DNA of 32,127 nt, taken from contig CALLVG010000190.1 in assembly GCA_938010715.1 (NCBI GenBank), positions 1 through 32,127 on the forward strand. Direction: 5' to 3'. The notes under the pieces were generated by a model. That model searched no databases. It was not told the DNA's origin and was given only the letters and a program-made list of their open reading frames with translations. Shown in pieces: positions 4,332-25,427 of this stretch. Positions within the stretch are counted from its first letter, which is position 1. Each line of letters starts with the position of its first letter. Position numbers and translations under genes: made by a program. This DNA comes from an uncultured Saprospiraceae bacterium (GTDB taxonomy: Bacteria > Bacteroidota > Bacteroidia > Chitinophagales > Saprospiraceae).

Positions 4332-4452
4332 TTGAGCCAACTCAAAACCTCCTCTGTAACCGGAGCCACTTTCGGCCCAGCCATCTTCACATATTCTCCT
4401 TTCTCATTCGAAAGGTATTTTTGGAAATTCCATTATACTTCGCTGCTTTCTA
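4328..4452 (-). pseudogene. Relic of the 3' end of a glutathione peroxidase gene
   Basis: Positions 4332-4452 align without gaps to 5141-5261 (offset 809). Translation: EV*WNFQKYLSNEKGEYVKMAGPKVAPVTEEVLSWLK*, with an in-frame stop where the intact copy has Ala. Confidence 0.85.
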
Positions 4453-4797
4453 TTTTTCCTCAATTATCCTTTTAATTTTCGATTTTAAATCAGGAATATC
4501 TGAGGTTACCACTCTCCAAACAAGCCCAACAGTAACACCAAAATATTGATGAATAACTACGTCTCGCATACCCGCAATTTCTCTCCATCTAACATTAGGA
4601 TATTTTGTTCTCGTAACTTTTGATATATTCTTGACAGCTTCACCAATGATTTCAATTCGACGAATTACTGCATCTTGCTTTTCAGTATTTTCCTCAAATT
4701 CTTTTTCGGAAAGACCTTCGGTATAATCTTCAATTCTTTGGATGCATTCAAGAATATCTTCGAAAAAAATAAGTTCGTCTCTTTTCTTCTTAGCCAT
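4450..4797 (-). CDS. HEPN (DUF86/HepT-like) putative toxin nuclease
   Basis: IAGMRDVVIHQYFGVTVGLVWRVVTSDIP: RX4HxY HEPN motif; overlaps the MNT gene by 8 bp. Confidence 0.9.
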   Translation of the reverse strand: MAKKKRDELIFFEDILECIQRIEDYTEGLSEKEFEENTEKQDAVIRRIEIIGEAVKNISKVTRTKYPNVRWREIAGMRDVVIHQYFGVTVGLVWRVVTSDIPDLKSKIKRIIEEK

Positions 4798-5092
4798 AGA
4801 TTCTGATTTCTTCAGCTAATATCCTTTCCTTTAAACGAGGTTTAATTGCTTGATATTCAACTAAATCTACTGCCCTACCAAGTAAGTCTTCCAATTCTAA
4901 TTTTATTCCCACAAAATCCAGTAAGCTAATCTTTGTTCCAAGTTCAACTAAAATATCAATGTCACTTTTTGATGTTGCATTGCCTTTTGCAGTCGAACCA
5001 AACAAACCAGCCTTCTTTATCTGATGTCGAATTAATATAGGAATGATTCTATCCTTTATTTCTAAAACATTCATTGTTTGAATTTTTGACAA
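4790..5092 (-). CDS. MNT (MntA-like minimal nucleotidyltransferase) antitoxin
   Basis: GLFGSTAKGNATSKSDIDILVEL: GSxxxGx5SDxD polymerase-beta-like signature; adjacent to HEPN partner. Confidence 0.9.
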   Translation of the reverse strand: MSKIQTMNVLEIKDRIIPILIRHQIKKAGLFGSTAKGNATSKSDIDILVELGTKISLLDFVGIKLELEDLLGRAVDLVEYQAIKPRLKERILAEEIRIYG

Positions 5093-17451: not shown

Positions 17452-17907
17452 ATGGACAACGATATAAAAATAAAACTAATACAACAACTCAATGAGCAAC
17501 TTGATACTCAAATCGAAACCGCTCAATCTGCCATCAACTCCGCCAAAGAATCAAAGAACAACGAGACCAAAAGCTCCGCTGGTGACAAGTTCGAGACAGG
17601 TCGCGCTATGATGCAAATCGAGCAAGAAAAAAACGAAATGCAACTCGGAAAAACCTTGCAACTCAAAAGTCTCCTCAAACAAGTTGATCTCAAAAAACAA
17701 CACGAAACTGTCGGTTTCGGAAGTCTCGTGATCACCAATCGCGGAAAATACTTCATCGCCATCGGTATTGGTAAGGTTGAAGTGGATGGTGAAATTTGTT
17801 TTGCTATTTCGGTCGATTCTCCAGTTGGGAAATTGCTTTTGGGTAAGCGAGTAGGGGAGGAGGTAGCATTTCGAGAGAATCACTTTTTGGTGGAGGGAAT
17901 TGTTTGA
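17452..17907 (+). CDS. GreA/GreB-like protein (C-terminal Gre-like region, N-terminal coiled coil)
   Basis: SSAGDKFETGRAMMQIEQEKNEMQLG ... VGFGSLVITNRGKYFIAIGIGKVEVDGEICFAISVDSPVGKLLLGKRVGEEVAF. Confidence 0.75.
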   Translation: MDNDIKIKLIQQLNEQLDTQIETAQSAINSAKESKNNETKSSAGDKFETGRAMMQIEQEKNEMQLGKTLQLKSLLKQVDLKKQHETVGFGSLVITNRGKYFIAIGIGKVEVDGEICFAISVDSPVGKLLLGKRVGEEVAFRENHFLVEGIV

Positions 17908-17999: not shown

Positions 18000-18076
18000 A
18001 GTCATCTGGAGATGACTTGATATTTGGGTGTAGTCTCCAGACTGCACCCAAATATCCATTCGTCTCCAGACGAAAC
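18000..18076 (+). repeat. Left REP-like palindromes of the RAYT locus
   Basis: gtcatctggagatgac; gatatttgggtgtagtctccagactgcacccaaatatc; ttcgtctccagacgaa: three consecutive palindromes. Confidence 0.85.
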
Positions 18077-18138
18077 AACAACCCAAATCAAAAACAAAAA
18101 AAAACATTATATTCACACCTAATAAAACAAACCATACT

Positions 18139-18732
18139 ATGCCAAAACGAAAAATTTTAGATCAGCGTGGACTTAACTATTTGACATTGACAGTAGTCGG
18201 CTGGGTAGATGTGTTTACAAGAAAAAGATATCGAGACATTATCATTGAAAGCCTAAACTTTTGCCGCAAAGAAAAAGGGTTGATAATCTGCGCTTATGTC
18301 ATCATGAGTAATCACCTACACCTCATCGCCCAAGTTGAAGAGGGAAATAAATGGACACTTTCAGATGTGCTTCGTGACTTTAAAAAATATACTGCTAATA
18401 GAATTTTGGAATCCATTATCAACGAACCCGAGTCACGCAGAGATTGGATGTTGATAGTATTTGGGTATCATGGAAAGTATAAAGAGCAAAATCGAAATTA
18501 TCAGTTTTGGGTGCATGGCAATCATCCCACTGCGTTGTATTCACCAAAAGTGATTTGGGAAAAGATTGCCTACATTCATGCTAATCCAGTTCGAGCAGAT
18601 ATCGTTGATCGCGCAGAGGATTATATCCACAGCAGTGCGCGTCAATATTCAAATGAACATTTAGGTGGGCCTTTAGAAATTGATTTGTTGCCGCCGTTGA
18701 TGCCGGGTGGATTTATTTATGTTCCTTCTTGA
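18139..18732 (+). CDS. REP-associated tyrosine transposase (RAYT, Y1_Tnp / IS200-like)
   Basis: AYVIMSNHLHLIAQVEE (HUH motif), DVLRDFKKYTANRILESI (catalytic Tyr region), KIAYIHANPVRADIVDRAEDYIHSSARQY. Confidence 0.93.
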   Translation: MPKRKILDQRGLNYLTLTVVGWVDVFTRKRYRDIIIESLNFCRKEKGLIICAYVIMSNHLHLIAQVEEGNKWTLSDVLRDFKKYTANRILESIINEPESRRDWMLIVFGYHGKYKEQNRNYQFWVHGNHPTALYSPKVIWEKIAYIHANPVRADIVDRAEDYIHSSARQYSNEHLGGPLEIDLLPPLMPGGFIYVPS

Positions 18733-18757
18733 TATTTTTTTCGTCAGCCACGGCGGA

Positions 18758-18807
18758 TGTATCTGGAGATGACTTGATATTTGGGTGCAGTCTGGAGACT
18801 ACACCCA
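18758..18807 (+). repeat. Right REP-like palindromes of the RAYT locus
   Basis: gtatctggagatgacttgatatttgggtgcagtctggagactacaccca. Confidence 0.85.
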
Positions 18808-18817
18808 GCGGGTATAA

Positions 18818-24983: not shown

Positions 24984-25241
24984 CATGAGTCATCCGTATT
25001 GGCGGATAAATCCTGAATTTTTGAAACACTCTGCTCCGTAGGAGCAATATCTTTGTAGAAATGTATTCATATTAGGCTTATTCCGCGCCGTAGGTGTGGT
25101 ATCTTATTTTCGACTTTAAGATTCCCCTTCTACGGAGCGGTTTTCCTTCGTTTTTAGATGATATTCTACAAAGATGCTGCTCCTACGGAGCAATTTTGAC
25201 CAAAATTCGGGATTTATCCACCAATACGGGCGACTCATATG
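24984..25241. mobile_element. Long inverted-repeat, MITE-like element (about 258 bp)
   Basis: catgagtcatccgtattggcggataaatcctgaatttt... (24984-) versus reverse complement of ...aaaattcgggatttatccaccaatacgggcgactcatatg (-25241); similarity continues to the centre. Confidence 0.85.
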
Positions 25242-25274
25242 GATGCTTAGAATTTTGCCTCAATTAGCAAAAAA

Positions 25275-25320
25275 ATAAGCATTCGTTGCTCTACAAACTA
25301 TTTCAGAATAAAGTCTAATG
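25275..25320 (+). repeat. Dispersed repeat (family R2)
   Basis: aataagcattcgttgctctacaaactatttcagaataaagtctaatg. Confidence 0.8.
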
Positions 25321-25427
25321 AATTTTTAAAAATCGAAAAATATATTTTACAGAATCCGGTTAAAGCAGGTATTGTAAGTAATTGGAAAGATTACTTTTTT
25401 AGTTTTACCGATAACTCAGATTTTTAA
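25317..25427 (+). pseudogene. Decayed C-terminus of a RAYT/Y1 transposase
   Basis: NEFLKIEKYILQNPVKAGIVSNWKDYFFSFTDNSDF*: YIxxNPVKAGxVxxWKDY signature without an N-terminal part. Confidence 0.8.

Follow-up and report, generated by a model that had tools for sequence, protein, structure and literature searches.

A probable RAYT element with inverted two-hairpin ends and an abnormal left end in a Bacteroidota genome

Why do two copies of a repeat lie in direct orientation on either side of a gene when the hairpin centres that they lead into are inverted? The window studied here, the whole stretch of 32,127 nucleotides that was analysed, is one complete contig (C190) of a draft genome of 3.60 Mb in 314 contigs, 76.6% complete, and it carries a RAYT gene that raises this question. 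A 27-bp direct repeat, atctggagatgacttgatatttgggtg, brackets the gene at 18004–18030 and 18761–18787. The preliminary description had reported direct copies around the transposase ORF (18000–18807) and, overlapping them, a left and a right 26-mer that are exact reverse complements. Both observations are correct, as are the coordinates given for them: the direct repeat is exact over 27 bp, and the 26-mers TGGGTGTAGTCTCCAGACTGCACCCA (18025–18050) and TGGGTGCAGTCTGGAGACTACACCCA (18782–18807) agree at 26/26 positions when one is inverted and at 22/26 in direct orientation. From this it had been inferred that the palindrome centre can flip, or that both orientations are functional left and right ends.

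The ORF at 18139–18732 encodes a RAYT. In a profile search the protein matched NCBIfam NF047646 with 93 bits, above the family cut-off of 80, which identifies a Y1 HUH transposase domain, and it matched PF01797 (Y1_Tnp) with 24.4 bits. The HUH motif (SNHLH, residues 57–61) and the catalytic tyrosine of the Y---NP motif (Y145 within YIHANP) are both present and intact. An alignment of 14 sequences, the RAYT of the window and 13 relatives, shows no variation at N58, H59, Y145, N149 and P150 and hardly any at H61. The closest relatives outside the genus are found in Saprospiraceae bacteria. Against the consensus of subclass 2.6 (NH[LIV]H, WQ, YIH[QN]NP), NHLH agrees and YIHANP and WV deviate slightly, as far as a reading of motifs goes. 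The gene is flanked by inverted repeats, and cognate REPs occur elsewhere in the genome. The features of the locus are listed here, with H2 for the large and H1 for the small hairpin.

18002–18015, plus strand: left outer small hairpin H1, GG centre, TCATCTGGAGATGA; the out-of-place piece, 29 bp from the H2 core and of opposite centre type
18016–18024, plus strand: left outer spacer CTTGATATT, contains GATA; identical to the right spacer in a direct match
18025–18050, plus strand: left large hairpin H2, CC centre, core of the left end; exact reverse complement of 18782–18807; TTTG arm on both sides and GCTG foot absent in the foot comparison
18051–18059, plus strand: left inner spacer AATATCCAT, TATC core; TATC recurs at this position in several of the genome's copies and in the element of the congener
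18060–18073, plus strand: left inner small hairpin H1, CC centre, TCGTCTCCAGACGA; spaced 29 bp from the H2 core and, like it, CC
18139–18732, plus strand: RAYT gene, Y1 HUH transposase of 197 aa (NF047646, PF01797, motif alignment)
18759–18772, plus strand: small hairpin H1 of the right side, GTATCTGGAGATGA, with a GG centre and a weak stem; the H2 29 bp away is GG too
18773–18781, plus strand: right spacer CTTGATATT, GATA core, from the sequence
18782–18807, plus strand: large hairpin H2 of the right side, with a GG centre, forming the element's right end, from the sequence and repeat comparison
18806–18809, minus strand: right-end outer foot GCTG (CAGC on the plus strand), overlapping H2, from the foot comparison

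Each H2 26-mer is itself nearly palindromic (22/26 against its own reverse complement), so the reverse-complement relation amounts to four differing bases, T/C, CC/GG and G/A. One position of the H2 stem is a T-G wobble pair when the CC strand folds and a C-A mismatch when the GG strand does; this asymmetry is mirrored between the two ends, as it is in inverted copies. The inversion extends beyond H2. The segments 18025–18070 and 18762–18807 are inverted repeats of 93% identity, and these, like the third hairpin at 18060–18073, were absent from the preliminary description. The hairpins of the left side fold together into one long hairpin of -23.8 kcal/mol as DNA, and the 72-nt left structure has a z of -8.5 against shuffles, 0/200 of which were as stable.

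A genome-wide search for the core with classification of its centre as CC or GG, suggested earlier as a check, was informative. The core GTCTSSAGAC has at least 32 matches in the genome compared with 3 for a reversed control pattern, and at least 30 of them are CC or GG; these counts are lower limits, as copies were found by searches and many lie near contig ends. Both the stability of the left structure and this excess over the control exclude a product of chance. The recurrence of the core, together with the NF047646 match, bears out the view that this is a RAYT with cognate REP hairpins. When the left structure served as the query, related copies turned up on several further contigs. The cores form two-hairpin units of one H2 and one H1, 29 bp apart and otherwise alike in their centres. 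Wherever TCTGGAGA/TCTCCAGA cores are 24–34 bp apart the spacing is always exactly 29 bp, and the centres agree in 9/10 core pairs, the sole discordant pair being the left outer H1(GG)-H2(CC) of the window. Contig C169 has the complete order H2(CC)-H1(CC)-linker-H1(GG)-H2(GG), and C225, C122, C134 and C269 have the same CC...GG pairing with some hairpins degenerate. This pairing is the layout of REPINs or BIMEs, and at the locus in the window the RAYT gene occupies the place that the short linker has in the REPINs elsewhere in the genome.

Other arrangements were also seen in this genome. On C122 (L013, 1860–1994) an H2(CC) that lacks a small hairpin of its own stands 36 bp before a complete H2(CC)-H1(CC) unit; this mosaic suggests that units do become fused. 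A second RAYT on C89 (L023), 48% identical and with an open frame, is surrounded by another hairpin family with TCTGGAGA centres (CAAATCTGGAGATTTG) in tandem blocks, and contig C551 of the congener G004 is arranged similarly. C90 carries a Y1 transposase gene (L027:1369–2172) with a YIINQKEHH motif like that of subclass 1.2, which is reported to be without REPs; repeated palindromic units, for example AGCTCCAGAGGAGC and AGCCCCAGCGGGGC, lie on both sides of it, with inverted arms of 85–89%.

The relatives of the RAYT show how the ends are normally oriented. In the congener G005 a RAYT whose matched part is 65% identical, and whose frame there contains one stop, is laid out as GCT-H2(CC)-TATC-H1(CC)-RAYT-H1(GG)-GATA-H2(GG), and the extra outer H1 is absent. 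The closest relative besides G005, a Saprospiraceae RAYT with 62% identity (L033), has ends of the two-hairpin kind that are inverted at 67/67 positions. Among 30 loci of Bacteroidota relatives with a recognisable core within 250 bp of the gene, CC outnumbers GG by 24 to 8 in upstream cores, and GG outnumbers CC by 23 to 2 in downstream cores (Fisher p = 4.8e-7, a value that is too small because several cores per locus are not independent). Many other relatives have different core sequences and are uninformative about the side of CC and GG. Since 8/32 upstream cores are GG, and the nearest upstream hairpin is GG in L042, L046 and L089, the side rule is valid for ends and not for each repeat. 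Because G005, L033 and the other relatives show the inverted CC/GG layout, we read CC on the left and GG on the right as the usual, inverted arrangement of the ends in a RAYT element; H2 reads CC at one end and GG at the other since the two ends are inverted copies.

The polarity of the hairpins is also marked by a foot. On the outer side, 42/55 distinct hairpins (17 loci of relatives) have the motif G[CT]T[GCA] starting precisely 10 nt ahead of the core, against 0/55 at the mirrored inner position (shuffles: mean 1.4, maximum 6); as the hairpins are related by descent, this count expresses conservation in this family and not many independent events. Among the H2 hairpins of the host genome in the foot table, 14/15, including the right end of the window, have GCTG, GCTC or GTTG outside. 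The left H2 of the window alone among these 15 copies has TTTG on both sides, and TTTG is the inner-arm sequence of the right end. The left H2 therefore has two inner arms, and its outer foot is missing. The preliminary description had placed a foot of the GTAG/GGAG type at the ggag before the left small hairpin. That tetranucleotide is missing at the right end, and GGAG was rejected as the foot because it is not conserved there; the conserved foot is G[CT]T[GCA] outside H2. The canonical pattern of GTAG REPs, 5' GT[AG]G at the hairpin foot, is absent as well: the right end has GCTG in its place and the left end TTTG. Searches of the literature on this core and on REPs of Bacteroidota RAYTs, including the sections of PMC6006769 consulted, turned up no account of a GCTG foot.

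The odd part of the left end is the H1(GG) and spacer at 18002–18024, a near-copy of the inner half of the right end that is fused to the left H2. It agrees directly with the right inner half (18759–18781) at 21/23 positions, and the two differing bases are 18002–18003. The left inner half agrees with the right inner half at only 17/23 positions when inverted, which is below expectation for fresh inverted ends. The flanks are direct because this copy, which continues as an exact match of 27 bp into H2, is joined outside the left H2. As the 9/9 other units are concordant and only the left outer pair is discordant, the added piece is the outer half-unit. Other fused three-hairpin palindromes were absent from the relatives' RAYTs examined, so the fusion seems to be either one isolated local event or an error of the assembly.

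Our data indicate that the locus is, in all likelihood, a RAYT element (REPtron) resembling those of Bacteroidota subclass 2.6, with inverted two-hairpin ends and a left end made abnormal by a fused inner half-unit. From outside inward, a normal end consists of the foot GCTG, H2, a short TATC or GATA spacer, and H1 29 bp further in. At the left end one H2 is common to two opposed H1 arms, with the outer foot gone. RAYTs are flanked by inverted REPs (PMC2817692). The RAYTs of E. coli and Stenotrophomonas cut single-stranded REPs in one orientation only, and reversing and complementing the loop of a perfect-palindrome REP severely reduced cleavage and binding (PMC8266576). The RAYT of the window may likewise cut single-stranded REP hairpins, whose polarity would be supplied by foot and centre. 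Two adjacent inverted units, or a junction of a right end with a left end, might have been reduced to a single one through slippage or template switching between their near-identical palindromes, and such a collapse of neighbouring inverted units is the likely cause of the fused left end. A similar origin, central deletion of an inverted dimer, is proposed for 'double foot' REPs by Quentin et al. 2018 (PMC6006769). If foot and centre do give polarity, the left end, having lost its outer foot, is probably a poor or dead substrate.

Other origins of the left end have to be considered. It might be a living joint of a right end with a left end, formed for example by tandem insertion of a circular single-stranded intermediate and retained because the shared H2 is functional. 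The order H1(GG)-H2-H1(CC) is that expected of an abutted junction from which one H2 was lost, and the near identity of the outer half to the right end is consistent with it. However, the sequence immediately upstream of 18002 showed no trace of a second RAYT, and the foot is lost on both sides. We also know of no circular single-stranded intermediate shown for RAYTs, and taken together we regard a living joint as unlikely. We hold it to be equally improbable that, in a short-read assembly, a right-end-like fragment was wrongly attached to the left end by way of the 27-mer and the palindrome. Such an error would fit a draft genome of many contigs in which numerous repeat copies lie near contig ends, the shortness and exactness of the shared stretch, and the lack of another fused example at the relatives' RAYTs examined, but on either side the contig runs on in unique sequence, and 18002–18003 are unlike the right copy. 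Copying of the left end onto itself by fold-back was judged less likely, because the outer left half agrees at 21/23 positions with the right end and at 19/23 with the mirror of the left inner half. In-place inversion of the H2 centre of an originally direct left unit, with unchanged flanks, would yield the exact direct flanks around an exactly inverted H2, yet it is very improbable and was rejected as the main cause: the left H2 is concordant with its own inner H1(CC) as in a canonical left end, none of the other nine units is discordant, the congener and relatives have CC on the left without any flip, and the missing foot would stay unexplained. Of the two earlier proposals, the flip thus finds no support, and the two orientations stand as left and right ends, CC upstream and GG downstream.

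The surroundings of the element were compared with those in congeners. The flanking porG and greA-like genes were sought in five congeners, and a clean empty site was not found among them. In G004 both flanks are present with about 5.8 kb of other DNA between them; this stretch of other genes, in the region L168 (G004:C342:6500–13824), includes an ORF of more than 1000 aa. G004 carries other genes in the place of the RAYT element, which indicates that the site varies between species. Homology to G004 resumes at about 18816, adjoining the end of porG, and this places the right boundary at about 18812–18816. At the other side it ends near 17875, within the greA-like gene; the comparison thus supports the right boundary only. 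Elsewhere in the window, the region 24985–25403 contains nested inverted repeats (37 nt, 89%; 29 nt, 93%) with GCTCCGTAGGAGC hairpins, and beside them, at 25317–25403, a short remnant that matches the terminal part of the RAYT model. A pair of genes for a HepT-like ribonuclease and a nucleotidyltransferase at 4450–5092 is likely a HEPN-MNT toxin-antitoxin module.

The element resembles several known systems. With the subclass 2.6 REPtrons of Bacteroidetes (Quentin et al. 2018, PMC6006769) the RAYT of the window shares the NH[LIV]H and YIHxNP motifs, a similar length (197 aa, the subclass median being 179), relatives in Bacteroidota, and flanking secondary structures of a non-GTAG kind with further copies in the genome. 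It differs in the tryptophan motif (WV instead of WQ) and in its fused left end, and the resolution of its hairpins into units of two, with G[CT]T[GCA] as the foot, goes beyond the description in the sections consulted. In REPINs and BIMEs (Nunvar et al. 2010, PMC2817692; PMC3116915), inverted REP pairs with a short linker also occur beyond the RAYT locus and the RAYT also lies between inverted REPs, but the family in the window has a GCTG foot instead of GTAG and two hairpins per half. The 'double foot' REPs of subclass 2.4 (PMC6006769) are alike in their symmetric structure and in the supposed central deletion of an inverted dimer, whereas the left end of the window is the opposite case, with outer feet lost and inner arms kept. 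TIRtrons with their TIRYT transposases (Di Nocera et al. 2013, PMC3733652) have terminal inverted repeats, some with self-complementary tracts, which recall the 67-bp perfect ends of L033; the repeats of the window differ in being REP units dispersed in the genome. It is conceivable, though doubtful, that Bacteroidota RAYTs of this branch have a REP class of their own, with an outer G[CT]T[GCA] foot and a CC/GG-centre hairpin, and that the fused left end is a captured right-end/left-end joint recording recombination or movement.

Our study resolves the apparent flip into ordinary inverted ends and one fusion. The loosely described 'atypical' hairpins of Bacteroidota RAYTs thereby gain a concrete anatomy: a foot, a polarity of the centre and, for this genome, the pairing of two hairpins at 29 bp. 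The anatomy can be tested by single-stranded cleavage assays, as for GTAG REPs, and the footless fused end would offer a natural test of the foot requirement.
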